DNA of 33,158 nt from Melioribacter sp. (GTDB lineage Bacteria > Bacteroidota > Ignavibacteria > Ignavibacteriales > Melioribacteraceae): contig PMDS01000134.1 in assembly GCA_003155655.1 (NCBI GenBank), positions 1-33,158 of the forward strand. The letters are read 5' to 3'. This document shows positions 2,504 through 27,226 of this stretch, piece by piece. The notes under the pieces are model-generated. The model saw only the letters and a list, made by a program, of their open reading frames with translations. It was not told where the DNA came from and did no database searches. Made by a program: the position numbers and the translations under genes. How positions within the stretch are numbered: position 1 is the first letter of the stretch; the number at the start of each line of letters is the position of its first letter.

Positions 2504-3325
2504 ATGAGTAAGTTGGCGAAAAATTTAAGCTCAACTGATAAAAGATTAATTGAAGAAGTTAAAGCAAAAGGGAATATCCCTCAGCATATTGCAATAATAA
2601 TGGACGGTAATGGAAGATGGGCTAAAAAAAGAAGTCTTCCGCGTATTGCTGGGCATCAAAGAGGAACTAATTCTGTTCGAGAAACTGTTGAAACTTGCGT
2701 TGGACTCGGAGTAAAAATTCTTACCCTTTATACTTTCTCTACTGAAAATTGGAAAAGACCAAAAGAAGAAGTTTCAACATTAATGCGTTTGATCGTTAAG
2801 AGCCTTCAGAATGAAACAGATGTGTTGAATAAAAATGATATTAGATTAACAACTATTGGTGATACTAATTCACTACCCGATGTTGTTCAAAAGGAGCTTA
2901 AGACCGCTTTACGAAAAACGGCACAAAATTCAAAAATGATATTGAATCTTGCTTTGAGTTATAGCGGCAGGTGGGAACTTGTTGAGGCACTGAAACATAT
3001 AACCAGTCAGGTAATTAATAAGAAAATCAAAGTTGATGAGATCTCTGAAGATCTGATTTCCAGGAATCTTACAACTTTTGACATGCCTGACCCTGATTTG
3101 CTGATAAGGAGCGGTGGCGAGTTTAGAATAAGCAATTTTTTACTCTGGCAAATAGCTTATTCAGAAATTTTTATATCTGATGTACTCTGGCCGGAATTTA
3201 AATGCAAAAACCTGCTGGAAGCTGTTAAAAACTATCAGAAAAGAGAAAGAAGATTCGGATTAGTTAGTGAACAAATATCGACCAACATAAAAAATATAAA
3301 GAATGCTAAAACACACACCAAGTAA
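2504..3325 (+). CDS. uppS: Isoprenyl transferase (undecaprenyl diphosphate synthase)
   Basis: This cytosolic cis-prenyltransferase condenses farnesyl diphosphate with isopentenyl diphosphate to make the C55 lipid carrier used for peptidoglycan and surface glycans. The 273-residue protein has the signature HIAIIMDGNGRWAKKR with catalytic Asp34, followed by GHQRG, LTLYTFSTENWKRP, DPDLLIRSGGEFRISNFLLWQ and a C-terminal YQKRERRFG. The first ~25 residues are a short extension before the conserved core. RSGGE replaces the more usual RTSGE or RTGGE, a mild change. Its 3' end overlaps the start of bamA by 23 bases. Confidence 0.95.
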   Translation: MSKLAKNLSSTDKRLIEEVKAKGNIPQHIAIIMDGNGRWAKKRSLPRIAGHQRGTNSVRETVETCVGLGVKILTLYTFSTENWKRPKEEVSTLMRLIVKSLQNETDVLNKNDIRLTTIGDTNSLPDVVQKELKTALRKTAQNSKMILNLALSYSGRWELVEALKHITSQVINKKIKVDEISEDLISRNLTTFDMPDPDLLIRSGGEFRISNFLLWQIAYSEIFISDVLWPEFKCKNLLEAVKNYQKRERRFGLVSEQISTNIKNIKNAKTHTK

Positions 3326-5798
3326 ATTACTAAAGTTTAGCTTAATCATCTTTTTGATTTCGTTAGCTGGACTTAGTGCGCAGCCGCAAAAAACGGTTTA
3401 TAAGGTTTTAGGTATATCTGTTATTGGGGGTAAAACTGCGGATGCTTCTACTATTATTGCAAACACTGGTCTGAAAGTCGGGGACGAAATATCTATACCG
3501 GGAGACCAGACAAACAGCGCAATCAAACATTTATGGAATCTTGGAATTTTTCAGGATGTCCAGATTGTGATTGAGAAAAAAACCGACGACGGTATTTTTC
3601 TGCAGATACAAATTAAAGAATATCCGCGCCTTGAAAAAATTGTGCTTCAAGGGAATAAAGAACTAAATGATGATAAGATAAATAAAAAAATTACAATTGT
3701 GCGCGGGCAAACTCTCAAACCACAGGAAATCTCTCATTTTATTAGTAAAATTAAATCACTTTATGAAGATGACGGTTACCTCAATGCTGCCATTGTACCA
3801 CATTACTATAATTTCTTCCAGGCTGATACCGCGAATAAAGAAGTGACAGTTACATGGAGAGATCAGAAAGATTTATCTAAAGAATATAAAACTACATATG
3901 AACTTGACAAAACCTCATCTGTCAACTCTGTATCAAGAATTAAAGGCAGAACAGTTCTAATTTTTGATATAAACGAAGGGGACGAGGTTAATGTAGAACT
4001 TATTAAATTTAACGGCAACATAGCTTTTGATGATGACCAGCTGAAAGGTGAATTTGATGATACAAAAGAACCTAGATGGTGGAAATTCTGGTCATCACCG
4101 AAATTCAAAAGAGAAAGTTTCGATAAAGATAAAGATCTTTTAGTAAAATTTTATAGAAAGAAAGGCTACAGGGATTTTGCCATACTTAAGGATAGTCTTG
4201 TATTTTCTCCCGATAAAAAACATGTTAATGTAATTGTTGACGTTTATGAGGGAAACCAATTCAAAATTAGAAATCTACTTTGGGAAGGTAACTCCGTTTA
4301 TCCAAATGATGCATTGAGCGAACGCCTCGATTTTAAACACGGTGATATTTTCGATTACGAAAAACTCAACCAAAATTTGCACTACAACGAGAAACAGTCT
4401 GATGTATCTTCAATGTACCAGGATAACGGTTATCTCGGATTTCAAATTGATGCTAAAGAAGAAAAAGTAGCACCGGATTCAATTGACTTACATCTTAAGA
4501 TATCCGAGGGAAATCGTTACAAAATTGGCAAGGTTGATATATTTGGAAATGATAAAACACGGGATAATGTAATACGCAGGGAACTATATACAGTACCGGG
4601 AAGTTATTTCAGCCGCTCCTATATTTTAAGAAGCATACAACAGCTTTCAAATCTTCAATATTTTAATGCAGAGGCTCTTTATAAAGGAATTGATTACAAA
4701 CCTGCTAACGATAGTACGGTAAATATAAGTTATAAGGTGGAAGAAAAATCAAGTGATTACCTAAATGCTTCTGTTGGCTATAGCGGTTCGTTTGGATTTA
4801 GCGGCGCAGTGGGCTTCACACTCACAAACTTCTCTCTCGCTAATCCATTCCAGATGGGTGCCGGACAAATATTAAATTTCAACTGGCAGTTTGGTGTTGG
4901 CAATTATTATAGAACATTTACTCTTGGTTTTACAGAACCATGGCTCATGAATACACCAACTTCTTTAGGCTTTGAATTATTCGATACAAGGCAAAATTAT
5001 GTTTACGAATTACAGCAATCCGGTTTTTCTGTAAGTACCGGTAGAAGATTAACATGGCCGGATGATTTCTTCTATATACAAGGTCTATTTCGTTTTCAAT
5101 ATAATGATGTTGTCAACGGAGGGGGTTACTATCCTGAAGGACTTTCACGGCAGTTTACAATTGGGGCTACTATTACTAGAACAGATATTGATAATCCTAT
5201 CTTCCCTTCCCGCGGTTCAAAAATTTCTTTGGGCGGAGAATTATCAGGAGGACCATTTTTACCCGGTAACGTTGATTATTATAAAATTAATCTCAAAACA
5301 GAATGGTACAAAACTCTTTTTAGAAATAGTAGATTTGTACTTTACTCTTCGGCTGAAGCGGGTTATATTGGGAAGTTAAAAGATGATACTCCTATACAGC
5401 CGTTTGAATATTTTTACATGGGCGGCAATGGATTGATTATTGCAACTACCCCTCTTCGTGGGTATGAGGATAGAAGTTTAGGCGATAAAGATCCCTCTAC
5501 AGGCAGTGTTATCGGAAGCACTGTAATGGCAAAGTTTACAACAGAGTTTAGAGTTGCATTAGCATTAGAACCAATTCCAATTTATTTACTTGCTTTTGCT
5601 GAAGCAGGTAATGTTTTTTTAGATATTAAACATACGAATATGTTCGATTTGAAGAGGTCTGCAGGTGTTGGCGCAAGAATTTTAATAAATCCAATTGGTC
5701 TTGTTGGATTTGATTATGGTTATGGATTTGACCGTATGAGTGTAGACGGACAGAACCCACAATGGGTATTCCATTTCCAATTTGGAAAAGGATTTTAA
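3303..5798 (+). CDS. bamA: Outer membrane protein assembly factor BamA
   Basis: BamA inserts and folds beta-barrel proteins in the outer membrane. The 831-residue protein has a signal peptide (residues 1 to about 26, ending LAGLSAQ), five POTRA domains up to about residue 485, and a C-terminal Omp85 barrel. The POTRA starts are recognisable as repeated blocks such as LEKIVLQGNKEL, VELIKFNGNIAF, IRNLLWEGNSVY and IGKVDIFGNDKT. The barrel carries the conserved LRGYEDR lid-loop motif and ends in FHFQFGKGF with the C-terminal Phe typical of barrels. POTRA2 carries an insertion (around YNFFQADTANKEVTVTWRDQ). It is followed by its likely chaperone genes. Confidence 0.95.
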   Translation: MLKHTPSKLLKFSLIIFLISLAGLSAQPQKTVYKVLGISVIGGKTADASTIIANTGLKVGDEISIPGDQTNSAIKHLWNLGIFQDVQIVIEKKTDDGIFLQIQIKEYPRLEKIVLQGNKELNDDKINKKITIVRGQTLKPQEISHFISKIKSLYEDDGYLNAAIVPHYYNFFQADTANKEVTVTWRDQKDLSKEYKTTYELDKTSSVNSVSRIKGRTVLIFDINEGDEVNVELIKFNGNIAFDDDQLKGEFDDTKEPRWWKFWSSPKFKRESFDKDKDLLVKFYRKKGYRDFAILKDSLVFSPDKKHVNVIVDVYEGNQFKIRNLLWEGNSVYPNDALSERLDFKHGDIFDYEKLNQNLHYNEKQSDVSSMYQDNGYLGFQIDAKEEKVAPDSIDLHLKISEGNRYKIGKVDIFGNDKTRDNVIRRELYTVPGSYFSRSYILRSIQQLSNLQYFNAEALYKGIDYKPANDSTVNISYKVEEKSSDYLNASVGYSGSFGFSGAVGFTLTNFSLANPFQMGAGQILNFNWQFGVGNYYRTFTLGFTEPWLMNTPTSLGFELFDTRQNYVYELQQSGFSVSTGRRLTWPDDFFYIQGLFRFQYNDVVNGGGYYPEGLSRQFTIGATITRTDIDNPIFPSRGSKISLGGELSGGPFLPGNVDYYKINLKTEWYKTLFRNSRFVLYSSAEAGYIGKLKDDTPIQPFEYFYMGGNGLIIATTPLRGYEDRSLGDKDPSTGSVIGSTVMAKFTTEFRVALALEPIPIYLLAFAEAGNVFLDIKHTNMFDLKRSAGVGARILINPIGLVGFDYGYGFDRMSVDGQNPQWVFHFQFGKGF

Positions 5799-13597: not shown

Positions 13598-16500
13598 ATG
13601 ACAGAACAAGAAAAAGATAATTCCACGGCAAACATTCCGGCAGCCCCAAAGCCGGTTGAACAAAATAAGCCTCTTTTAAAGAGAAGCCTTTTCCACAAAA
13701 TTGTTAATGTTTTCATTGGAATTGCTCTTGGATTAATAATAACGATCCTTCTATTTCTAGGTTTCACCCAGACAAGTACATTTAGAGAGATATTAAGAGA
13801 AAAAGTTATAGCGCTGTTAAACAACGAAACAAAAGGCAAGGTGAATATTGGAAAAATTGAGGGCACAATTTTCACTTCTCTTTTTTTAAGGAACACCTCA
13901 ATAGTGGTTGATAAAGATACTTTACTTTTTGCGCGCAATATTGAGATTAAAGCCAGTCCTCTTCAACTTCTGTTAAAAAAGATATATGCAAGAAAAATTC
14001 TGCTTGAAAACGTTAAAATTGCGATGCTTCAGGATTCTGCCGGAGTTTGGAATTTTTCTAAATTTTTGAAACCGAAACCTGAAGATAATTCTAAATCATC
14101 TTTTCCATTTATGATACAGGTGAATGATCTTCAACTGCATAATGTAAGCCTTACACGGCAATCATATTCCAATTTAAAATCAGTCAATGTTTATAGTGAA
14201 ATGAATTTTGATGATTTAAGAATCCAGGACATTTATTTTGGCGCCCAGGCTTTTATCGATATAGATAATTCGAATTATTTATTAATACTCAAAGAATTCT
14301 CTTTTAAGCCAAATCTGAACCGTTTTAAGCTTAAAAATATTTCTGGTGAGATTGCCGTCACAAAAAATTTTTCCAGCATAACAAATTTCAATTTCATTAC
14401 TGATAGCAGTCGGATTAAAATAAATGCACGTTTGGACAGTCTTGATTTATTTGGAAAAGTAAGTCTTGAAGATTTTAAAAACTATCCTGTATCAATTGAC
14501 ATTAAAGCGCACCCCTTCAATTTTGACGATCTTTCATCTTTTATTGGCTCAACAGAAATTTTAAAAGGTGGCCCTTCGCTTGAATTAAAAGCGCACGGTA
14601 AATTTGGAGGTTTTAAAATTGACAAATGTATTCTTGATTACCGCAACACTCATTTTGATTTAGACGGAAAACTTCTTAATCTGAACAAGCCTCAAAACCT
14701 TTTTATACAAGCAAAGATTAATAATTCCGATATTGATTATAAAGATGTTAATGTGCTTCTTCCTACATTAAAGCTGCCTGAATATGCCCTGCTTCAATTA
14801 CGAAAATCTAATTTGGAATTCGAAGGCGAACCGACAAATTTTAAATCCACGTTTATCGGAAATATTGATGAAGGCAAAGTTAAATTTGAAGCTGCATTAA
14901 ATCTTAGCAGCAGCCCGATGAATTATAATATTAAATTTGAGACCGAGAATCTGAACTTGGCGCCAGTACTTGAATTTAATACAAAGTTAAATTCAAACGG
15001 AACACTTGTCGGCAGGGGTGTATCTCCAAGCGAATTAAATATGGAGTTAAATTTTTCAGCATTTAACTCTTCAATTAATGGTTATTCAATAGATAAAATT
15101 AATTTGAAATCCCACGCCGCTAATAGAACTATTGATTTGAATCTTAATGCAGCCAGTGATACAGCCAGTGCAAATTTCAAAGGCAGCCTTGTATTTGACA
15201 AAGACACTATTCCCTCATACAATTTAAATGGAGTATTGAAAAATTTTAATCTAGCCACTTTTATTAAAAATCCCAAATATGACAGCAACCTCAATCTTAA
15301 TTTTAATTTGAATGGAAAAAGCTTTAATCCTGATGAACTAATTGGGGCAATAAAATTTGGTGTTGATTCATCCCGCTTCGGCAACAAATATATTGATCAT
15401 TCAGAAATTCAATGTTCATTTAAAAAAGATTCTGCCCACAGAGAAATATTACTGGTTTCTGATTTTGTCGACTTCAAAATCGATGGAAATTATTCTCTTA
15501 ACAAAGCGATTGAATTAATAAGTTATGAATCAAGCACCATTTCAAAAATAATAACCAGGAAAATCAACCAGTTAAATCCGCTAAATGTTGTTCAAAGGAG
15601 GCCAAGAGACTCCACAACAGTTTCAGCGCTGCCCATAATTGTAGATGAAAATCTTAAATTTAATTATGATGTCAAGTTTAAAGATTTTGAACTTATTGCA
15701 AAATTTTTAGGTAACGATAGAATGGATATTTCCGGCTCATGTGGTGGTTACGTCCAGAACCAGTCGGGTAATTTTTCTATTACAGCCCAGCTTAAGTTAG
15801 ATTACATAATTATGGTGCAAAAGGCATCAACATTTTATATTTCCGATCTCTCGGCAGATATAAATTTTACGCGCGATAATCACTCATTAGCTTTCAGCAA
15901 ATTATTTGGCACAGCATCAATCACCGGAAAAAGATTTTATTCGGGCAGCAACATTAAATCAATAGATGCTGATATTGTTTTCAACCAGAACAAATTAATC
16001 TTCAATACTTCTGCCAATATTGATGATATAATAAATGCAAATGCTGAAGGAATTATTTATATGACTCCCGGCGAGCAGAAATTAGCAATAAACAAACTTT
16101 CATTATTATATGAAGGAATTGACTGGACAAATAGAGATACTGTTAAAATTCTTTTAAATCCGGATTATTTTAAAATTATTAGCTGCCAGCTTCAAAAAGA
16201 TACTTCCTTAATTAGTTTAAATGGAATTATTGAAAGCTCAGGCAAGCAGGATTTAACAATAAATGCAAATCGAATTTCCGGCGATATATTAGAGAAATAT
16301 CTTTTAGGAATGAAAGATAACCAGATAAAAACCAGCGGACAGGCTGTTATTAAGATTAGCGGTGAATTTGAGAAACCATTGATGGACATTTCAATTGATC
16401 TGAAAAATCTTGAGATAGGTACTTCAAAGCCAAGCAACATAAAAGGAAATGCAACTTATACCGATAAAAAACTTACCGCCAATTTTACTTTTCTTGATTT

Positions 16501-18136
16501 AACTTCAAACGAAAACAAACCATTAATATCATTTAAGGGTAATCTGCCTGTAGACCTGAGTTTTGCACCGGTTGAACAACGCTTTCTTAAGGATGATAAA
16601 TTAAATATTCAATTGTCATCATCTAATTTTGATTTGAGTTCTCTCGGAAGTTTAATACCTCAAATATCAGATCAAAAAGGAATACTAACAGCAAACATTA
16701 GCATGGATGGAACGTTTAAAACCCCTATTTATTCCGGCAGCCTCTCTTTAACCGAAGGCAGTTTCAGGTCAGTTTATAATAACTTAATTTACACAGCCGG
16801 GTTAAAACTGCATTTCACCGATCAGACAATGAACCTGGATAGTTTGGTTATCTCTAATACCGGTGATACACAATACGCTGGAACAATTGTTGGAAGCGGT
16901 GGAATAACATTCGACGGATTCAATGCAAAAGATATTGAGTTAAAATTCAATGGCGACCTTGCAGTGCTTGGACCACCAACAAAAAATATAAGTCCATTTT
17001 TTTATGGTGATCTTTTAATTGGAACAGACGGTGACTGGCTCCTAACGAAACGCGGTGATAGAGTTTTCTTCAAAGGTAATGCTTTGATGAAATTTACCAA
17101 CCTTGTTTATACTACTGGCATAGAAACCGGGGGTCTATCTAATAAAGATTTTGATATTCAAATACTTGAAGACACAACCAAAGTTGATAAAGAATTTTTA
17201 AGATTCAAGCAGGTGCTAACAAAAGAAAAAGCATTTCAGGAGCAGATTGCGCAAAATTCAGAAAAGGATCTAAACTTTGATTATGAAATAGGAATACGCG
17301 CGGAGAACAGCGCTACGTTGACTTTTATTCTTGGACAGGTTGCGAATCAGAAACTGGTAGTTGAGATACGTGGTGATATGAAATATTCTAATGTTGAAGG
17401 TCAATCACAAGCTCAAGGCGTTTTTGAATTGTTGCAGGGCTCAAAACTTGAATTCTTTAAAACTTTTGAAGCAGCCGGAACTTTACGTTTTGAGAGTGAT
17501 ATCACAAATCCATATCTTGATATTGTTGCTACTTATAAAAGTGATTATGTTAATCCACATGATGTAACCGGTACAACCCAAGAGATTGCTGTAAAGATTA
17601 AAATTAAAAGCCCTCTCTCAGAATTGGGTAAAAATCTTGCAAGCAATACTGAAAGCATTGGTGTTTATACTGTTTCAAAAAATGGTCAGAGTGATGTTAG
17701 AGATACAAGGTACGACTACGCTGACGCTTTTTCATTTATTATTTTTGGAAAATTTAAGGATGAGTTAACTGCCCAGGACAAAACCTCGTTTGCGGGGCAG
17801 TCAAATGCATTTGGCAGTACAGCAACTTCCCTGCTTGGTTCTTTGCTTTCAAATTTTGTTAACACTCAAGTTGGCGATCTGATAAACAACATACAAATAT
17901 CCCAGTATGGCTATTACACAAAATTTTCTGTTTCAGGCAGGATTCAAAATTTTAGTTACTCGATTGGCGGCACAACAGAAACATTTCAGAGTTTATCTAA
18001 GGCTATTTTCGGGTTAAGGTATAATTTTACACCAAGATTTTCTATGAGCTTTGACAGGAAAGACCCTATAGGAACCCAATATAGTTTGGATGATAAAATC
18101 TTAGAATTTTTAATTAAATATAAATTTGAGTTCTAA
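13598..18136 (+). CDS. tamB: TamB-family translocation and assembly module protein
   Basis: This is a 1,512-residue AsmA-like protein with a short cytosolic tail rich in Pro and Lys, one membrane segment (about residues 36-56, VNVFIGIALGLIITILLFLGF), and a very long beta-rich periplasmic region ending in a conserved TamB C-terminal domain (from about residue 1050, including LDIVATYKSDYVNPHD and the GQVANQKLVVEIRGDMKYSNVEGQ block). Such proteins span the periplasm as a hydrophobic groove and support outer-membrane protein and phospholipid transport. No TamA is adjacent; BamA upstream may be its partner, as proposed in bacteria without TamA. It overlaps rnr in TAATG. Confidence 0.9.
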   Translation: MTEQEKDNSTANIPAAPKPVEQNKPLLKRSLFHKIVNVFIGIALGLIITILLFLGFTQTSTFREILREKVIALLNNETKGKVNIGKIEGTIFTSLFLRNTSIVVDKDTLLFARNIEIKASPLQLLLKKIYARKILLENVKIAMLQDSAGVWNFSKFLKPKPEDNSKSSFPFMIQVNDLQLHNVSLTRQSYSNLKSVNVYSEMNFDDLRIQDIYFGAQAFIDIDNSNYLLILKEFSFKPNLNRFKLKNISGEIAVTKNFSSITNFNFITDSSRIKINARLDSLDLFGKVSLEDFKNYPVSIDIKAHPFNFDDLSSFIGSTEILKGGPSLELKAHGKFGGFKIDKCILDYRNTHFDLDGKLLNLNKPQNLFIQAKINNSDIDYKDVNVLLPTLKLPEYALLQLRKSNLEFEGEPTNFKSTFIGNIDEGKVKFEAALNLSSSPMNYNIKFETENLNLAPVLEFNTKLNSNGTLVGRGVSPSELNMELNFSAFNSSINGYSIDKINLKSHAANRTIDLNLNAASDTASANFKGSLVFDKDTIPSYNLNGVLKNFNLATFIKNPKYDSNLNLNFNLNGKSFNPDELIGAIKFGVDSSRFGNKYIDHSEIQCSFKKDSAHREILLVSDFVDFKIDGNYSLNKAIELISYESSTISKIITRKINQLNPLNVVQRRPRDSTTVSALPIIVDENLKFNYDVKFKDFELIAKFLGNDRMDISGSCGGYVQNQSGNFSITAQLKLDYIIMVQKASTFYISDLSADINFTRDNHSLAFSKLFGTASITGKRFYSGSNIKSIDADIVFNQNKLIFNTSANIDDIINANAEGIIYMTPGEQKLAINKLSLLYEGIDWTNRDTVKILLNPDYFKIISCQLQKDTSLISLNGIIESSGKQDLTINANRISGDILEKYLLGMKDNQIKTSGQAVIKISGEFEKPLMDISIDLKNLEIGTSKPSNIKGNATYTDKKLTANFTFLDLTSNENKPLISFKGNLPVDLSFAPVEQRFLKDDKLNIQLSSSNFDLSSLGSLIPQISDQKGILTANISMDGTFKTPIYSGSLSLTEGSFRSVYNNLIYTAGLKLHFTDQTMNLDSLVISNTGDTQYAGTIVGSGGITFDGFNAKDIELKFNGDLAVLGPPTKNISPFFYGDLLIGTDGDWLLTKRGDRVFFKGNALMKFTNLVYTTGIETGGLSNKDFDIQILEDTTKVDKEFLRFKQVLTKEKAFQEQIAQNSEKDLNFDYEIGIRAENSATLTFILGQVANQKLVVEIRGDMKYSNVEGQSQAQGVFELLQGSKLEFFKTFEAAGTLRFESDITNPYLDIVATYKSDYVNPHDVTGTTQEIAVKIKIKSPLSELGKNLASNTESIGVYTVSKNGQSDVRDTRYDYADAFSFIIFGKFKDELTAQDKTSFAGQSNAFGSTATSLLGSLLSNFVNTQVGDLINNIQISQYGYYTKFSVSGRIQNFSYSIGGTTETFQSLSKAIFGLRYNFTPRFSMSFDRKDPIGTQYSLDDKILEFLIKYKFEF

Positions 18137-20235
18137 TGAAAAAAGAAATTAAGGCATTTTTTAAAAATCATCCTTCTCTTAAGCTCAAATCAAAAGAGCT
18201 TGCAAAAAAATTAAATATTCTTGATGAATATGCTTATGCAGAATTGAAACATTTTCTTCACGCACTTACAGAGGAAGGTTTCCTTACAAAACAAGCAAAG
18301 AGATATCAATTCAACAAATTTGATGCGAACAAACTTATAGGCCCTCTGCAAATTATTAACGGCGGCGAGTATGGATTTGTAATTTTGAAAGATCCACAAA
18401 TTAAAGATATTTTTATTGCGGGTAAGAACCTTAATACTTCTTTTGATGGAGACATAGTTGAAGCAGTTTTAATAGCCTCACGCCGCGGTAAAAGTTTGGA
18501 AGGTGAAATTGTGAGGGTTGTGGAAAGGAAAAGAAAAGAGATAGTGGGGACACTTCAAAAAAGTCAATCTTTCTTCTTTGTACAGCCGGCTGATAATAAA
18601 ATCCACAGGGACATTTATATTTCTGAAACCAAGTTAATAGGTGCAAAAATTGGCGATAAAGTTGTAGCTGGTGAAATTGAATGGAAAGCACCATTATTAA
18701 ACCCTGAAGGACGCATTATAGAAATACTTGGAAAATCAGGAAGTAATGACGCCGAAATTGCATCTATTGCAAGAGAGTATGGCTTGACTTATAAATTTTC
18801 AAAGGCTGTATTAAACGAGAGTGAATCTTTTTCAGAACTAATTCCCCCAGTAGAAATTAAAAACAGGCTGGACTTGCGCAATAAAACAATTTTTACAATT
18901 GACCCCGAAGATGCAAAAGATTTTGATGATGCTGTTTCAATTGAAACCCTGCCTAATGGAAATTACCAGATTGGAATTCACATTGCAGATGTGAGTCATT
19001 ATGTTAAAGAAGGAACTGAATTATACGAAGAAGCATTAAACCGGGGAACAAGTGTATACATTGTGGGCAAAGTTATACCAATGCTTCCGGAAAAATTATC
19101 TAATAATATTTGTTCTTTAGTCCCCAACAAAGACAGGCTTACATTTTCAGTATTAGCGGAATTTACACCGCGTATAAAATTAGTTTCTTATGAAATTCAT
19201 AAAACAATTATAAAAAGTAAAAGACGCTTTACTTATGATGAGGTACAGGAAATATTAGAAAAAGGAGAAGGAGACTTTTTTGAGCAGATATCCCTGCTGA
19301 ACTATGTATCTAAAACACTGCGGGCAAAAAGAATGAAGAAAGGAAGTATAAACTTTTTCTCTCCTGAAGTTGTCTTTAAACTGGATAATAATGGAATTCC
19401 TGTAGAAATTAAAATTAAAGAAATACGCGAAAGTCACAACTTGATTGAAGAATTAATGCTTTTAGCCAATCAAATAATTGCTGAACATATTCGTCCTAAA
19501 ACGAACAAAAAGTCAATTCCATTTGTTTACAGGGTACATGATTTACCGGATAAAGAAAAAATTACAGAGTTTGCCCGGTTTGTAAAAACACTGGGATATC
19601 ATTTTGACCCAAACTCAGCAAATAACTCAAAACAGTTTCAACTTTTACTTGATGAAGTTCAGGGTAAGGAAGAAGAGGCAGTTGTGAATGAGATTGCAAT
19701 CCGTTCGATGGCTAAAGCAGTTTATTCAACAAAAAATATTGGTCATTACGGTTTAGGATTCAGGCATTACACCCATTTTACTTCTCCAATCAGGCGTTTT
19801 CCGGATTTAATTGTTCACAACTTGATTTATAAATATATCCAGGATAATTTGGAGAAAAATTTATCGCTGGAAGAATTAGAAGAAATTTGTAATCATGCAT
19901 CTGCGCGTGAGCGTAATGCAGTTAATGCAGAACGGCTTTCAGTTAAATTGAAACAAATTGAGTTCTTAAAAAGTAAAGTTGGTGAAAATTTTCACGGTGT
20001 TGTTTCAGGCATTACACATTTTGGAATTTTTATTGAATTAAATCAAACCCTGGCAGAAGGATTAATAAGACTGCGCGATATGGATGACGACTATTATCTT
20101 TTTGACGAAAAAAATTATTCAATTTTTGGTAAAAGAAACGGCAAAAGAATTCGTCTTGGAGATAAAGTTAATGTAAAGCTTATACGCGTAGATGAAGAGA
20201 AACGCGAAATTGATTTTATACTTCTTGACGAATAA
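18136..20235 (+). CDS. rnr: Ribonuclease R
   Basis: This 3'-to-5' exoribonuclease degrades structured RNA in the cytosol. The 699-residue protein has an N-terminal winged helix (residues 1-60), cold-shock domains, the RNB catalytic domain with DPEDAKDFDDAVSI at 256-269 (Asp256, Asp262, Asp264 and Asp265 are likely metal ligands), IADVSHYV, and FTSPIRRFPDLIVHN. A C-terminal S1 domain starts about residue 616 (FHGVVSGITHFGIFIEL). The lysine-rich tail of some RNase R proteins is absent. The start is coupled to the tamB stop. It has no evident link with the envelope genes beyond co-transcription. Confidence 0.95.
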   Translation: MKKEIKAFFKNHPSLKLKSKELAKKLNILDEYAYAELKHFLHALTEEGFLTKQAKRYQFNKFDANKLIGPLQIINGGEYGFVILKDPQIKDIFIAGKNLNTSFDGDIVEAVLIASRRGKSLEGEIVRVVERKRKEIVGTLQKSQSFFFVQPADNKIHRDIYISETKLIGAKIGDKVVAGEIEWKAPLLNPEGRIIEILGKSGSNDAEIASIAREYGLTYKFSKAVLNESESFSELIPPVEIKNRLDLRNKTIFTIDPEDAKDFDDAVSIETLPNGNYQIGIHIADVSHYVKEGTELYEEALNRGTSVYIVGKVIPMLPEKLSNNICSLVPNKDRLTFSVLAEFTPRIKLVSYEIHKTIIKSKRRFTYDEVQEILEKGEGDFFEQISLLNYVSKTLRAKRMKKGSINFFSPEVVFKLDNNGIPVEIKIKEIRESHNLIEELMLLANQIIAEHIRPKTNKKSIPFVYRVHDLPDKEKITEFARFVKTLGYHFDPNSANNSKQFQLLLDEVQGKEEEAVVNEIAIRSMAKAVYSTKNIGHYGLGFRHYTHFTSPIRRFPDLIVHNLIYKYIQDNLEKNLSLEELEEICNHASARERNAVNAERLSVKLKQIEFLKSKVGENFHGVVSGITHFGIFIELNQTLAEGLIRLRDMDDDYYLFDEKNYSIFGKRNGKRIRLGDKVNVKLIRVDEEKREIDFILLDE

Positions 20236-20257
20236 TAGTTACTCAAAGGATATAACA

Positions 20258-23200
20258 ATGAAAAAGATTTTTTACCCGGTGATTCTTTCATTTTTATTAC
20301 TTACTACGGTTCGTGCCCAGTTTGGCCAGAACAAAGTAAACTACAAAGAATTTGATTGGTTTTATATACAGACCAAACACTTTGATATTTACTTTTCAAA
20401 AGGCGGAGAGAAAATAGCAGAATTTACCGCTTCAGCTTCTGAGGATGCGGTTGCACAATATCAAAAAGACCTTAACTACCAGATAAATAATAGAATTTCT
20501 ATCATTGTCTATAACTGCCATAATGATTTCCAGGAATCCAATGTTACTGACGAATATTTAAGTAAAGGGACCGGAGGATTTACAGAACCTTTCAAAAACA
20601 GGGTTGTATTCCCGTTCGAAGGATCGTATAAAAAATTTCAACATGTAATAGCCCATGAACTTGTTCATGCAGTTATGCGTGATATGTATTATGGCGGAAC
20701 TATTCAAAATATAATTTCAAAAGGAATTACACTTCAGCTGCCTACCTGGTTCTGGGAAGGGAGCGCAGAATACCTTTCGCAGGGATGGGAAACAAATACA
20801 GATATGTTTATTCGCAATGCGATTATTAGTGAAACCCTGCCGGATATTAACCAACTTGACGGTTATCTTGCATACCGCGGAGGGCAGGCTCTATTTAAAT
20901 ATATTGCCGATACTTACGGCAGACAAAAAATTGGCGAATTGATGGCTAAGATTCAAAACCTTGGCGGACTTGAACCGGCTTTAAAAGCTGCTATAGGAAT
21001 TAATATTGAGGAATTAAATGAACGCTGGAAAAAAAGTTTAAAGAAACAATTTTGGCCTGATATTGCAGTAAAACAGGACCCTGATGAACTTTCCAAACGA
21101 TTAACAGATAATAAAAAGGAAAAAGGATTTTACAATACAAGTCCCGCAATCTCACCACAAGGGGATAAAATTGCTTTCATCTCCGACCGCGATATATATT
21201 TTGACGTTTACATTATGAATGCTCATGATGGAAAAGTATTAAAGAAAATTGTTGAAAGTGGAAAAACTGCTGACTTTGAGGAACTTACTGTATTACATCC
21301 GTCTTTGGCATGGTCGCCGGATAATAAACATATTGCCCTATCTTCAAAGTCCGGCGGTTATGACGTAATTACAATTATTAATTCGGAAACAGAGGAAAGC
21401 TACGAGCTCCCCTTTCAACTGCTTACAATTGAATCAGTCAGCTGGTCGCGTGATGGAAGTAAACTGGCATTTGGAGCGCAGAATTCTTCACAGTCCGATA
21501 TATACATTTATGACATGAACACCAAGCAGCAATCAAATCTTACGAGTGATATTTATAGCGATTCTGACCCGGCATGGACACCAGACGGTAAAAAAATTAT
21601 TTTCTCTTCAGACCGCGGCGATGAATTGACTCAGACAGCTCCGACAGTAGATTACATGATGTATAAACACAATTACAAACAGCTCGATCTTTATTCAATT
21701 GAAGTTGACACAAAAAAGGTTGAAAGGCTTACTGATTGGCAATATAGTGATGAAAAATATCCAATTGTGTCAAATGACGGCAAAGAACTGATTTTTGTTT
21801 CAGACCACAACGGCATAAATAATATTTATATAAAAAGCCTTATTCCATCTGATAGGAATCCGGGTAAAACCGTTCTTGAAAATAAGGCAATACCAATTAC
21901 AAATTCTTACAGCGACTTAGGACAAATATCTCTTTCCTATGATTCTAAAAAATTAGTTTTCACAGCGCTATATAATCTTGGCTATAATATTTTTCTGCTC
22001 AATAATCCTTTTGACATGAAAATTGACTTAGATAGTTTGAAATACACTAATTATATGAATGAAATAGTTAATGCAAAGACAAGCAAAGATAAAGCCGGGA
22101 CTGTTGAACAGGTTTCAATTTTGAAGGATACAACCAAGAATAAAAATATTGTTTTAAACGATTCAACAGCTCAAAAAACAAAAATATTTGTTGGCCAATA
22201 TGTAGAGAAAAAAGTCGGCAAAGATTCAGTTACAACTGATTACAGCAGGTATGTTTTTACAAAAAATGCAGCAGAAAGCGACAGCGCCTTAATTGAGAAA
22301 AGAAATCAGATGTTTAAAGAAACATTAGATAAAAATGGAAATTTTCTTGTAAATAAATACAAAATAAATTTTACACCCGATATCATTTATGCTAATGCCG
22401 GTTACTCAACGCTATACGGATTATTAGGAACAACGGTTCTCTCATTCAGCGATGTGCTTGGAAATCATAGGCTCATAGGACAAACCAGCTTGCAGATTGA
22501 TATTAAGAACAGCGATTATGGATTGGCTTATTACTATATGAAAGAGAGAGTAAGTTATGGACTACAGGCATTTCATACGGCGCGTTTTCTTTACAGAGAT
22601 TCCGATTATGGTTCAGAACTTTACCGCTTTTCCAATTTTGGAGTTGTGGCACAAGCAAGTTACCCGCTTGACCGTTTTCACCGTCTGGACTTTGGGTTTA
22701 GTGTCTTGGGTGTAAGCTCAGAAAATCTTGACGATACTACTGTTCCTATAGATCAGAACACTTTTACACTTCCCTCGATAAGTTTTACTCAAGATAATGT
22801 ATTATGGGGTTATACATCCCCTATTGAAGGCACACGTTATTCATTTACTCTTTTTGGAGATCCGGGTTTTGTTAAGCAGTCACAAAGTTTTTACTCATTT
22901 GTTTTTGACTATAGAAATTATTTTAGATTCTGGTGGGATAATGGATTTGTATTCAGGCTTTCCGGTGGTATCTCAGGAGGCGGGAATCCTCAAAGATTTT
23001 TTATTGGAGGAACCGAGAGCTGGATCAATAGAGAATTTGCAACCGGAAACGTGCCTGTTAATAGCGCAAGTGATTATGCTTTCCTGACACCGGCGCTTCC
23101 CCTGCGTGGCTATGATTACGCAGAACGACTTGGAACAAAGTATGGGTTGTTAAATCTTGAATTGCACATACCTATAATAAGATATTTACTAACAGGCGGT

Positions 23201-23455
23201 CTGCCTTTATTCTTTCAAAATGTACTGGGAGTGTTCTTCCTTGACGCAGGAACAGCATGGGATGATACAAAGCAGCTTCAGCTTATTGGCAAAGACGATA
23301 ATGGCGAAACTGTAACAAAAGACCTGCTTATTGGAACCGGTGCCGGATTAAGAGTTTATTTTCTTTTCTTGTGGAAGTTTGATGTTGCGTGGAAATATAA
23401 CTTAAATCATTTTTCAGAGCCGCGCTATTTAGTTTCTCTTGGTTTGGATATTTAA
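20258..23455 (+). CDS. Metalloprotease, TolB-like propeller and outer-membrane barrel fusion
   Basis: This 1,065-residue exported protein combines three parts. A signal peptide (to about residue 20, TTVRAQ) precedes a peptidase-MA-like zinc protease domain with HELVH at 133-137 and the downstream EGSAEY (Glu167, Glu171). About residues 285-590 hold six WD40/TolB-like blades such as SPAISPQGDKIAFISDRD and DPAWTPDGKKIIFSSDRG. The C-terminal ~330 residues look like an Omp85/surface-antigen barrel with FFIGGTESW and LPLRGYDYAERLGTKY. The frame is open from 20192 within rnr, but the ATG at 20258 has an AAAGGA site and the signal peptide. The likely location is the outer membrane with the protease facing the periplasm. 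The substrate is unknown. Confidence 0.88.
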   Translation: MKKIFYPVILSFLLLTTVRAQFGQNKVNYKEFDWFYIQTKHFDIYFSKGGEKIAEFTASASEDAVAQYQKDLNYQINNRISIIVYNCHNDFQESNVTDEYLSKGTGGFTEPFKNRVVFPFEGSYKKFQHVIAHELVHAVMRDMYYGGTIQNIISKGITLQLPTWFWEGSAEYLSQGWETNTDMFIRNAIISETLPDINQLDGYLAYRGGQALFKYIADTYGRQKIGELMAKIQNLGGLEPALKAAIGINIEELNERWKKSLKKQFWPDIAVKQDPDELSKRLTDNKKEKGFYNTSPAISPQGDKIAFISDRDIYFDVYIMNAHDGKVLKKIVESGKTADFEELTVLHPSLAWSPDNKHIALSSKSGGYDVITIINSETEESYELPFQLLTIESVSWSRDGSKLAFGAQNSSQSDIYIYDMNTKQQSNLTSDIYSDSDPAWTPDGKKIIFSSDRGDELTQTAPTVDYMMYKHNYKQLDLYSIEVDTKKVERLTDWQYSDEKYPIVSNDGKELIFVSDHNGINNIYIKSLIPSDRNPGKTVLENKAIPITNSYSDLGQISLSYDSKKLVFTALYNLGYNIFLLNNPFDMKIDLDSLKYTNYMNEIVNAKTSKDKAGTVEQVSILKDTTKNKNIVLNDSTAQKTKIFVGQYVEKKVGKDSVTTDYSRYVFTKNAAESDSALIEKRNQMFKETLDKNGNFLVNKYKINFTPDIIYANAGYSTLYGLLGTTVLSFSDVLGNHRLIGQTSLQIDIKNSDYGLAYYYMKERVSYGLQAFHTARFLYRDSDYGSELYRFSNFGVVAQASYPLDRFHRLDFGFSVLGVSSENLDDTTVPIDQNTFTLPSISFTQDNVLWGYTSPIEGTRYSFTLFGDPGFVKQSQSFYSFVFDYRNYFRFWWDNGFVFRLSGGISGGGNPQRFFIGGTESWINREFATGNVPVNSASDYAFLTPALPLRGYDYAERLGTKYGLLNLELHIPIIRYLLTGGLPLFFQNVLGVFFLDAGTAWDDTKQLQLIGKDDNGETVTKDLLIGTGAGLRVYFLFLWKFDVAWKYNLNHFSEPRYLVSLGLDI

Positions 23456-23839: not shown

Positions 23840-24508
23840 ATGAAGAAAACATTTCCAGTTTTATTGTCTCTTGCCTTGATAATCTTCATCAACGGCTGCT
23901 TAAATTACACACAAGTTACAACAATTAAAAAAGACGGTTCCGGCAACATGTTCATCCATTATTGGATGAAGTGGACTTCAAAGAAGGATTCGTCAATTGT
24001 AGGACAGCTTGGTATTTTTAGTAAAGATTCGGTTCAGAAGGAATTTTCTTCAAAATATAATTCTATTACCAATGTTGAAGTCTATGAGAGCATTGCAGAT
24101 AGCAGCATCCATGCAAAAGTTGAATTTAACTTCAACAGCCTGGATTCCTTGAATGCAACACCTGCTTTTAGAAAATCAGAATTATCGATCAAAGACGGCG
24201 CAAAAAACATCAAAATATTTTCACAATTCATTCCGCCGATTGCCACCGGCTTTGGATACCAAAGTAAGAATTTTTCACTTACTTACGTTTATTATCTGCC
24301 CGGAGAAATACTAAGCCATAATGCGCCGGAATCCGACCGGAATAAGCTGACATGGAAATATACACTGGATGAAATTGGCACAGGCAAGTATATAACCGCA
24401 ACTTACCGCCCGTTCAAGCTGAAGGAAACACCAACCTGGATTTACGTTTGCGCTCTTATAGTTTTTGTTATTGTTGTTGTTTTTCTGTTCAGCAAGAGGA
24501 TGAAATAA
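23840..24508 (+). CDS. Putative lipoprotein with C-terminal membrane segment
   Basis: The 222-residue protein begins with a lipoprotein-like signal (MKKTFPVLLSLALIIFINGC), the modified residue being Cys20, although the lipobox INGC is not ideal. The middle is a beta-rich domain that starts TTIKKDGSGNMFIHY and ends near YRPFKL. It then has a hydrophobic segment of about 19 residues (IYVCALIVFVIVVVFLF) followed by SKRMK. This would leave the domain outside the cytoplasmic membrane, tethered at both ends if the lipobox is used. The frame extends to an ATG at 23813, but the later ATG matches the signal. The family is not recognised with certainty. Confidence 0.65.
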   Translation: MKKTFPVLLSLALIIFINGCLNYTQVTTIKKDGSGNMFIHYWMKWTSKKDSSIVGQLGIFSKDSVQKEFSSKYNSITNVEVYESIADSSIHAKVEFNFNSLDSLNATPAFRKSELSIKDGAKNIKIFSQFIPPIATGFGYQSKNFSLTYVYYLPGEILSHNAPESDRNKLTWKYTLDEIGTGKYITATYRPFKLKETPTWIYVCALIVFVIVVVFLFSKRMK

Positions 24509-25242: not shown

Positions 25243-25515
25243 ATGAGATTAAGCGAATCGGTAAAATCAATTAGTTATCTTAAAGCTAATGCCGCTGATT
25301 TGATTGACGAAATTAACAAAGAACAAAAAACTTTTGTTATTACTCAGAATGGCGAAGCAAAAGTAATTGTTCAGGATATAAAAGTTTATGAAAAGACCCA
25401 GGAAACTATGGCAATGCTTAAATTACTTGCAACTACCCGCGGTAAGAGCAAAGAAGCCAAGGGAATTAAAGAGACTTTTACTGAACTTCGCAATGAATTG
25501 AAATTCAATCAATGA
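25243..25515 (+). CDS. Phd/YefM-type antitoxin
   Basis: The 90-residue protein has the Phd/YefM N-terminal DNA-binding dimer domain (SVKSISYLKANAADLIDEINKEQKTFVITQNGEAKVIVQDIKVYEKTQET), followed by a C-terminal tail that would wrap the toxin (KETFTELRNELKFNQ). It neutralises the toxin encoded by the next gene and represses the operon. The start is 22 bases after the -10 box with AAGGA upstream. It overlaps the toxin gene by 4 bases (ATGA), a coupling common in these modules. Confidence 0.88.
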   Translation: MRLSESVKSISYLKANAADLIDEINKEQKTFVITQNGEAKVIVQDIKVYEKTQETMAMLKLLATTRGKSKEAKGIKETFTELRNELKFNQ

Positions 25516-25841
25516 CTAAGAAATATAAAGTTATTATTGATCCGCAGGCAAAATTAGATCTTAAAGAGATATTCATTTACGCTGCTATGGATGACAGCGT
25601 ACAATCCACAAATAGACTTTTGGATGCTCTTGAAGAAACTTGTTATAAACTTGAGAAATTTCCTGAACGGGGTCATGTACCGCCTGAATTGAAACCTACC
25701 GGAATTAAACACTATTTGGAAATTCACTATAAACCATACCGCATAATCTACGAGATTGAAAACAATTTAATTTATATTCATTCCGTAATTGACGGCAGAG
25801 GAAATATTCAAGAAATTCTAAGTAATAGACTGTTACGATAA
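25512..25841 (+). CDS. RelE/ParE-superfamily toxin
   Basis: The 109-residue protein has the compact toxin fold: an N-terminal strand (KYKVIIDPQAKLDLKEIFIYAA), two helices (QSTNRLLDALEETCYKLEKFPERG), and the C-terminal strands HYKPYRIIYEIENNLIYIHSVIDGRGNIQEIL. The PYRIIYEI and VIDGRGNI segments match RelE/ParE proteins. Whether it is a ribosome-dependent mRNase (RelE) or gyrase poison (ParE) cannot be told from sequence; the pattern of FPERGH near the middle is common in ParE/YoeB-like members. Confidence 0.87.
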   Translation: MTKKYKVIIDPQAKLDLKEIFIYAAMDDSVQSTNRLLDALEETCYKLEKFPERGHVPPELKPTGIKHYLEIHYKPYRIIYEIENNLIYIHSVIDGRGNIQEILSNRLLR

Positions 25842-26089: not shown

Positions 26090-27226
26090 CTATCCTTCAA
26101 AAAGACGGATATATTTTTCAAAAGCAAAAATTCTATTCCTCTGGAAGCCAGTCATTTCTTTAAGAATATTCAATCGAACAAAATCTTCAATCAACCTAAA
26201 AGCAGTGGATGGATTTATTGATAAAGATGAAGCTACATTCTGGCTGTCAACAATAGGATTACTATAAAGATGCTGCACAAATTGCCGGGCAAGTTTTGTC
26301 TTTTTACCAAGAGTCAAAATATCCCTGGATTCAATTTCCTGCCGGAGTTTAATAATTTCCTTAAAAGTCTGAATAGAATTTTCCGAAGTCTGCTTTATCC
26401 CTTCGAGGAAAAATTTTAACCACTGTGTTATATCGTTATTAGTACGGGCTCTTGTAAGATTATCATAATAAAGCGATTTATGTTTTTCAAAAAACGCGGA
26501 AAGATATAAAGTGGGTTTTAGTAACAATTCTTTGCTTACAAGATAAAGCGTAATCAACAATCTTCCTATTCTCCCGTTGCCATCTAAAAACGGATGTATT
26601 GTTTCAAACTGGTAATGCGCCATACCAATTCTTATTAAATGAGGCAAAGGATATGTTTCTGAATTAATAAATTTTTCGAGATCCGACATTAATTCCGGCA
26701 ACTCCTCAAAGTGAGACGGGATAAAATAAGCATCATTTATTGAAGAACCGCCTATCCGGTTTTGGCTTGTGCGAAACTCACCGGGCATTTTATTTTCGCC
26801 TCTTACACTTTGAAGCAAGGTGTAATGAGTCTTTTTTAAAAGTCTGTTCGAGAGCGGCAATGTTTGAAGATTTGCAATTGCGTCATTCATAGCTTTGATA
26901 TAATTCTGAACTTCCATCCAATCGTTCTTTTTTTCCGGAGCTATATACTCTTCCTTTTGAAGCGCTTCCTCTATGTTGGTTTGTGTTCCTTCAATCCGGC
27001 TGCTTGTGGTTGCTTCTTTGCTTACGTGCATCATTATGAAGAAATTAATATCCGGTACTAGCTGGGAAAACGCGTTTAATTCCCCAAGTTTAATGTTTGC
27101 TTCGCTCAATAAATTAACCAGGCTGCTGTTGCTGATCTGCCAATCTTTGTTAATTATTGAAGGAGAAAAGCTTTTGTACTTAAACTGTTGCTTATAGGCT
27201 CCGGCTTTGAAATTCTTCAAATCCAT
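26090..27226 (-). CDS. Fic-family AMP-transferase with C-terminal winged helix
   Basis: Fic enzymes usually transfer AMP from ATP to hydroxyl groups on target proteins. The 378-residue protein has an N-terminal helical part with the inhibitory motif SSRIEG (Ser75, Glu79), matching class II Fic proteins whose helix blocks the active site. The core motif HPFLDGNGRIGR starts at His211 and includes the full catalytic set. The C-terminal ~70 residues (VDSQNVASSLSINPSTAFRLIEDFVRLNIL) look like a winged helix that could bind DNA. Both active and inhibitory motifs are intact. It stands alone between two copies of a ~55-bp repeat. Confidence 0.92.
   Translation of the reverse strand: MDLKNFKAGAYKQQFKYKSFSPSIINKDWQISNSSLVNLLSEANIKLGELNAFSQLVPDINFFIMMHVSKEATTSSRIEGTQTNIEEALQKEEYIAPEKKNDWMEVQNYIKAMNDAIANLQTLPLSNRLLKKTHYTLLQSVRGENKMPGEFRTSQNRIGGSSINDAYFIPSHFEELPELMSDLEKFINSETYPLPHLIRIGMAHYQFETIHPFLDGNGRIGRLLITLYLVSKELLLKPTLYLSAFFEKHKSLYYDNLTRARTNNDITQWLKFFLEGIKQTSENSIQTFKEIIKLRQEIESRDILTLGKKTKLARQFVQHLYSNPIVDSQNVASSLSINPSTAFRLIEDFVRLNILKEMTGFQRNRIFAFEKYIRLFEG

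Follow-up and report, generated by a model that had tools for sequence, protein, structure and literature searches.

Omp85 subfamilies without POTRA domains have already been published, and the diversity of the Omp85/TpsB proteins is expanded in Bacteroidetes/Chlorobi and Ignavibacteria; the published WD40-Omp85 subfamily combines a TolB-like propeller with an Omp85 barrel, for which a BamA-BamB-like platform was suggested (Heinz and Lithgow, 2014, PMC4104836). The gene described here occupies positions 20258-23455 of a 33,158-nucleotide contig of Melioribacter sp. (class Ignavibacteria; PMDS01000134.1), the whole of which is called the window below, and its product has the same order as the WD40-Omp85 proteins, with the propeller N-terminal to a non-POTRA Omp85 barrel, but adds a conserved zinc peptidase in front of the propeller. 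The terms "peptidase", PF13485 and PD40 do not occur in the main text of the subfamily description (PMC4104836), and zinc-peptidase fusions of the present type may sit in the published WD40 group. Another published Omp85 subfamily, named "Metallo", is called a metalloprotease on the basis of PF00149 (PMC4104836, section 10). Term searches gave no propeller, WD40 or peptidase in a paper on the Bacteroidota beta-barrel assembly machinery (BAM) (Nature 2025, PMC12611786) and no WD40 in a paper on TamL (PMC12045153). No description of a peptidase-propeller-Omp85 fusion was recognized in the open-licence literature searched. The family PF00149 is presumably that of the metallophosphoesterases, and the "Metallo" subfamily would thus be unlike the fusion in the window.

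A proposed functional parallel among envelope peptidases is BepA (YfgC) of E. coli, in which an M48 peptidase is combined with a TPR domain (PMC7950410). BepA is a periplasmic HExxH metallopeptidase acting on the BAM complex in the degradation or maturation of LptD (PMC8423444, PMC7950410, PMC13067283). Like the window protein it is an envelope HExxH metallopeptidase, tied in its case to an Omp85-type assembly site, but its M48-TPR composition differs from the Peptidase_MA_2 domain, propeller and own barrel found here: at E ≤ 0.1 Pfam detected only Peptidase_MA_2 and propeller-type models in the window protein and neither M48 nor TPR. PlpD, a patatin-Omp85, shares the fusion of an N-terminal hydrolase to an Omp85 barrel, although its hydrolase is a lipolytic patatin domain in contrast to the zinc peptidase plus propeller of the window protein, in which neither patatin nor POTRA, the domain carried by PlpD-type proteins, was found at the same Pfam threshold. 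The six-bladed propeller fold is shared with TolB, a periplasmic protein of the Tol-Pal system, while the score of the window protein with the NCBIfam TolB equivalog (116.5 bits) remained below the cut-off of 343.15.

The anatomy of the three-part fusion is well supported. As to its function, the reading tentatively preferred here, with somewhat less than an even chance of being correct, is that of an outer-membrane-anchored, periplasm-facing zinc endopeptidase, which would take part in the quality control of envelope proteins, those of the outer membrane included, or in their processing.

Domain anatomy of the fusion protein

The initial annotation had proposed that a gluzincin-like protease (HELVH plus EGSAEY), a six-bladed TolB-like propeller and an Omp85-like barrel with an LRGY motif are joined in one polypeptide. 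Pfam recovered the peptidase and the propeller, and all three parts were supported by an AlphaFold2 model and by fold comparisons. The model of the whole protein, made with 41 orthologs, had a predicted local distance difference test score (pLDDT) of 82.0 and a predicted template-modeling score (pTM) of 0.79. The open reading frame extends from 20192 to 23455 on the forward strand (1087 codons), and its longer form runs 44 bases into rnr; the version of 1065 amino acids (aa) starting from ATG 20258 was preferred because of this overlap, the spacing of an AAAGGA sequence which stops 7 bases 5' of the ATG, and the signal-like N-terminus.

The Peptidase_MA_2 match (PF13485) had an E-value of 1.2e-16 and 61.6 bits against a curated cut-off of 32.4. 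The initial annotation had named poor conservation of the zinc ligands among homologs as an argument against the fusion; residues H133, E134, H137, E167, G168 and E171 were invariant in 41/41 aligned orthologs, all of which possess the combination of HExxH with a glutamate as the third ligand that marks the gluzincins (Peptidase MA). The same six residues were unchanged in 22/22 rows of a second set comprising 11 orthologs and 11 more distant homologs. The motifs were also kept in 68/68 further loci, being recognized by pattern in 55 and by reading (HExxH and EGxxE) in the 13 which carry Y or V after the W, although these loci include repeat records of the same genomes and do not represent 68 independent genomes. 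Locus L124, tricorn-like by eye and without HExxH, was excluded from alignment A2, and locus L125 had no homologous frame.

The peptidase part modeled alone (254 aa) reached pLDDT 86.4. In VIA-align comparisons its catalytic-domain fold was shared at Z-scores of 13-16 with M30 lugdulysin (7bb8_A, Z 16.3, 233 aligned, 3.9 Å), M9 collagenase (8jt1_A, Z 16.1, 219 aligned, 3.7 Å) and M1 aminopeptidases (best 6atk_C, Z 15.0, 219 aligned, 3.8 Å), in agreement with Foldseek (1z1w, E 7.5e-06). These three families have HExxH plus glutamate ligand sets. The identity to them was 9-16% in the listed alignments, and none was found by a profile search of the PDB sequences with the peptidase alignment, where the best match was a Pumilio-type protein at E 1.5. 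Tyr206, invariant in both alignments, is 72 residues C-terminal to Glu134, and the corresponding spacing in the lugdulysin mutant E242Q/Y315F (title of 7bb9) is 73, which makes Tyr206 a candidate transition-state tyrosine. The possibility of chance motifs was rejected because both the zinc ligands and the fold are conserved. The peptidase is also the best-conserved part of the fusion, with a mean identity of the orthologs to the window protein (n = 41) of 56%, compared with 47% for the propeller, 21% for the linker and 48% for the barrel, which fits a predicted working enzyme.

The PD40 repeats were matched by Pfam at E 6.4e-22, above the curated cut-off, and the propeller appeared in the model with six blades, five of four strands and one of three (292-582, strand count read from DSSP). 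It was superimposed on TolB (2ivz_C) by VIA-align with Z 27.2, 244 aligned residues and 2.3 Å; Foldseek likewise returned TolB, together with BamA, for the window protein. The linker that follows varied in length from 77 to 160 aa across the 41 rows (between columns 585 and 695), and its residues 612-668 had pLDDT under 50.

The barrel part of the predicted structure, which had been suggested as a check, showed 16 long strands (706-1061, DSSP reading with five 3-residue loop strands omitted); neither of the two refuting observations named by the initial annotation, a missing barrel and variable zinc ligands, was thus made. The LRGY sequence is in a loop of 53 residues that joins strands 11 and 12, a position which we equate with L6 of the Omp85 family, and R950 was conserved in 41/41 and G951 in 40/41 rows; both marks of an Omp85 protein, the 16-stranded barrel and [V/L]RG[F/Y] in L6, are therefore present in the model. 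BamA barrels overall matched at Z 22-25 in VIA-align, including that of D. radiodurans (8xnb_A, Z 24.7, 312 aligned, 3.9 Å); in the BAM complex of F. johnsoniae it was chain A that matched (9n2d_A, Z 24.2, 313 aligned, 3.7 Å). Of the 41 aligned barrels, 23 matched PF01103 (Omp85) at E ≤ 0.01, with the best at 2.4e-17, and the barrel profile gave one clear match among PDB sequences, 9ccg_A at E 4.3e-11, from an entry titled Fusobacterium BamA-Fab. No POTRA domain was found by Pfam in the window protein, while BamA showed four such stretches in the same scan. An aromatic C-terminal end is usual for outer-membrane barrels, and the protein ended with -DF in 59 of the 68 further loci.

In the strand order of the model the two termini of the barrel lie together, opposite the LRGY loop (L6). 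By analogy with known Omp85 proteins the termini would be periplasmic, with the peptidase and propeller beneath the barrel, as expected if the chain enters strand 1 from the periplasm. The opposite placement, in which the barrel of a type Vd-like (PlpD-like) surface enzyme would pass the peptidase and propeller across the outer membrane, to act or be released outside and digest external protein, is considered unlikely. It is consistent with the resemblance of the peptidase to M9 collagenases and M30 lugdulysin, which are secreted, and with the variable linker, which could thread the barrel. For PlpD itself, transport of the N-terminal enzyme to the cell surface has been reported (PMC4104836). 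However, a folded peptidase-propeller passenger of about 560 residues is large, and the strongly conserved N-terminus together with the tamB/rnr linkage in part of the families looks more like a housekeeping function than like a secreted enzyme, which would be variable. Moreover, the POTRA domain known from PlpD-type proteins was undetected here.

Distribution and genomic context

A match at E ≤ 1e-3 was present in 57/57 relatives (in one of them, G021, only at 1.2e-8), in 149/149 genomes of the class and in 187/198 genomes of a phylum sample, the genome counts being read from the tables by hand. Within the class 145 genomes were at the ortholog level, our own label for E ≤ 1e-100, and four (G100, G109, G136 and G152) were weaker. 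The phylum sample included 49 class members, all at the ortholog level, and 149 genomes from outside the class, of which 53 were at this level and 32 between 1e-100 and 1e-30, with the remaining 64 divided into 53 with weaker matches and 11 without a match. The nearest named relatives were Melioribacter sp., Ignavibacteriales/Ignavibacteriae and one assembly named "Bacteroidetes bacterium".

The gene run in the window begins with uppS, bamA, two ompH/skp-like genes, lpxD, lpxC/fabZ and lpxA, and continues through a lipoate-ligase-like gene, a propeller-repeat gene, a pfkB kinase, a cytidylyltransferase-like gene, a TamB/AsmA-like gene and rnr to the fusion gene (Table 1). The initial annotation had placed the gene last in an outer-membrane-assembly operon: the assembly context holds in the window, with its bamA, skp-like, lpx and tamB-like genes, but the position at the end does so less well, since rnr directly precedes, metabolic genes intervene and a lipoprotein-like gene follows. 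The expectation that homologs always sit near bamA/tamB failed. The bamA gene was found in 9/18 upstream stretches, all nine belonging to the 10 genomes of the window's order, inside which skp-like and lpx genes lie upstream as well; with 0/8 upstream stretches outside the order, a constant place beside bamA was rejected. Among 40 loci, which were hand-picked across 31 families, not random and in some cases cut by contig ends, rnr was present in 20 and a tamB-like gene in 19, and the strict order of tamB-like gene, rnr and fusion gene was seen in 18, which come from 10 of the 31 families; three of these 10 lie outside the class. In L103 and L105 the fusion gene was present without rnr or tamB. 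The TamB-like gene may be undercounted because of its fast evolution. The tamB-rnr linkage is thus more widespread than that with bamA, which was seen only within the order.

This order is in line with another, rather improbable reading, in which the barrel would serve the neighboring TamB-like bridge as its partner in the outer membrane, and the fusion would be a delivery station for lipids or proteins similar to the translocation and assembly module (TAM) but with a built-in peptidase. Many bacteria have TamB but no TamA/TamL, and an Omp85 gene is often found next to that for TamB (PMC4494059). On the other hand, rnr intervenes in all 18 ordered loci, 22/40 loci are without the order, no POTRA was seen in the window protein, and two POTRA-Omp85 proteins (707 and 588 aa) encoded elsewhere in the genome could serve TamB. 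Even the TamB name of the neighbor is weak, because a search of the genome with PF04357 recovered no TamB. The narrower proposal of a sole TamA substitute was weakened by the same two POTRA-Omp85 genes. On contig C25 (L127) of this genome an Omp85 barrel is joined to a domain that, judged by eye, is patatin-like.

The small lipoprotein-like protein encoded directly downstream of the fusion has, by eye, a lipobox-like ING-C and a C-terminal hydrophobic stretch, and gave no match in Pfam. Its homologs were directly downstream in 9/40 loci, with a Cys after a hydrophobic signal-like start in 9/9. From 24508 the synteny breaks: elsewhere (8-9/40 loci) genes resembling those for PRPP synthetase, L25 and peptidyl-tRNA hydrolase (names by eye) follow the lipoprotein-like gene, in the window ParE-, Fic- and Gabija-like genes instead. 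The ParE-like gene is located at 25512-25841; the Fic protein (26090-27226, minus strand) matches the SoFic defence model (PADLOC E 7.6e-115), and the Gabija-like anti-phage pair (28682-32309, minus strand) consists of a GajA-like protein (PADLOC E 4.8e-152) and a GajB-like UvrD helicase (E 5.2e-185).

At least 40 of the 57 relatives carry a further match to the peptidase-propeller part at E ≤ 1e-50, for the most part in frames near 940 aa, and eleven such paralogs or more distant homologs that were aligned had 930-1065 aa. The genome of the window had no close paralog among its 3 matches. Its contig C92 (L153:2598-5666) encodes a more diverged protein of 1022 aa with a signal-like start, HEFTH, WFAEGTAQY, PD40 repeats and, by eye, a barrel-like end. 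Its peptidase and propeller parts aligned to the family profile with an HHalign probability of 99.9% (E 4.6e-32); an RGY-type motif was not found in this protein. In a relative (G018), a distant homolog (L137:17714-19900, 24% identity over 590 aa) is located about 11 kb from bamA. The second peptidase-propeller proteins, in the relatives as well as in this genome, suggest several client sets, and might point to a protease for the maturation of secreted or lipid-anchored proteins (exported precursors) and not for quality control. Such a dedicated maturation role is judged distinctly unlikely: the downstream lipoprotein-like gene could be its client or partner, but it recurs in 9/40 loci only, and no other obvious client gene was seen recurring alongside.

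Table 1. Positions in the window of the fusion gene, its parts and the neighboring genes discussed in the text
Feature	Residues	Positions	Strand	Basis
Zinc peptidase-propeller-Omp85 barrel fusion, whole gene	1065 aa	20258..23455	+	Pfam and AlphaFold2 model
Sec-type signal peptide, MKKIFYPVILSFLLLTTVRA	1-20	20258..20317	+	judged by eye
Gluzincin-fold zinc peptidase domain, Peptidase_MA_2 (PF13485)	22-275	20321..21082	+	Pfam, fold
HELVH, two zinc His and catalytic Glu	133-137	20654..20668	+	conserved motif
EGSAEY, third zinc ligand Glu167	167-172	20756..20773	+	conserved motif
Tyr206, candidate transition-state tyrosine	206	20873..20875	+	invariant in two alignments; role inferred
Six-bladed TolB-like beta-propeller, PD40 repeats	290-583	21125..22006	+	Pfam, model, fold
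Variable linker	about 585-700	22010..22357	+	alignment, model
16-stranded Omp85-type beta-barrel	706-1065	22373..23452	+	model, fold, Pfam matches of relatives
LRGY, loop L6 between strands 11 and 12	949-952	23102..23113	+	alignment, strand order
bamA, near start of gene run, 14 kb upstream		3303..5798	+	TIGR03303 E 8e-125
TamB/AsmA-like gene, two genes upstream		13598..18136	+	NCBIfam TamB E 6.6e-20, DUF748 E 4.7e-10, both below cut-off
rnr (RNase R), directly upstream		18136..20235	+	TIGR02063 E 2.2e-223
Small lipoprotein-like gene, directly downstream, possible partner		23840..24508	+	by eye

Possible function of the fusion

As an outer-membrane-anchored, periplasm-facing endopeptidase, the fusion would be held in place by its barrel, which, being of the Omp85 type, may dock with an assembly site or resemble one. 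The propeller might be a substrate receptor or a gate before the active site, and stalled or misassembled clients would be cut at the assembly site, similar to what BepA does at the BAM complex, except that protease and barrel here belong to one chain. The secretion-type signal, the invariant and intact metal site, the gluzincin fold and the Omp85 barrel fold all argue for this endopeptidase role, and the high conservation of the peptidase part, the BepA precedent, the tamB-rnr order (10/31 families), the bamA, skp-like and lpx genes found upstream within the window's order and the -DF ends (59/68, some of these loci repeating the same genomes) were also counted in its favor. The quality-control or maturation role suggested by the initial annotation is plausible.

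Several observations weigh against the endopeptidase role. The listed fold matches of the peptidase belong to M30, M9 and M1 and not to the M48 family of BepA, although the absence of BepA or other M48 proteins among them is no proof of difference. The C-terminal third of the window protein, which holds the barrel, had no match in Pfam, PF01103 included, and is divergent by sequence, and the HHalign comparison of the barrel profile with the barrel of the window's own BamA was weak (probability 29%), for which reason the Omp85 assignment rests on the fold, the motif and the Pfam matches of the relatives. The window protein terminates in Ile (23450-23452) and not in Phe. The tamB-rnr order is missing from 22/40 loci, and bamA from the upstream stretches outside the order. 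Finally, as BamA, a patatin-Omp85 (patatin by eye) and two POTRA-Omp85 proteins are also present in the organism, the barrel of the fusion need not do assembly.

A farther-reaching proposal, which we regard as quite unlikely, would make the fusion a self-contained surveillance machine. An active Omp85 insertase barrel, equipped with its own client receptor (the propeller) and its own zinc protease, would be fed with clients or lipids by the adjacent TamB-like bridge, and insertion or destruction would be decided on one chain; such a machine would unite counterparts of BAM, BamB and BepA in a single polypeptide and be old in the phylum of the Ignavibacteria. The outer-membrane quality-control proteases BepA, YcaL, LoiP and DegP are separate from the assembly barrel (PMC7950410, PMC13067283). 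A widely conserved protease-Omp85 fusion would offer a physically simple system for studying how stalled barrels are recognized and cut, and the fusion adds an enzyme to a subfamily that has so far been read as BamA-BamB-like.

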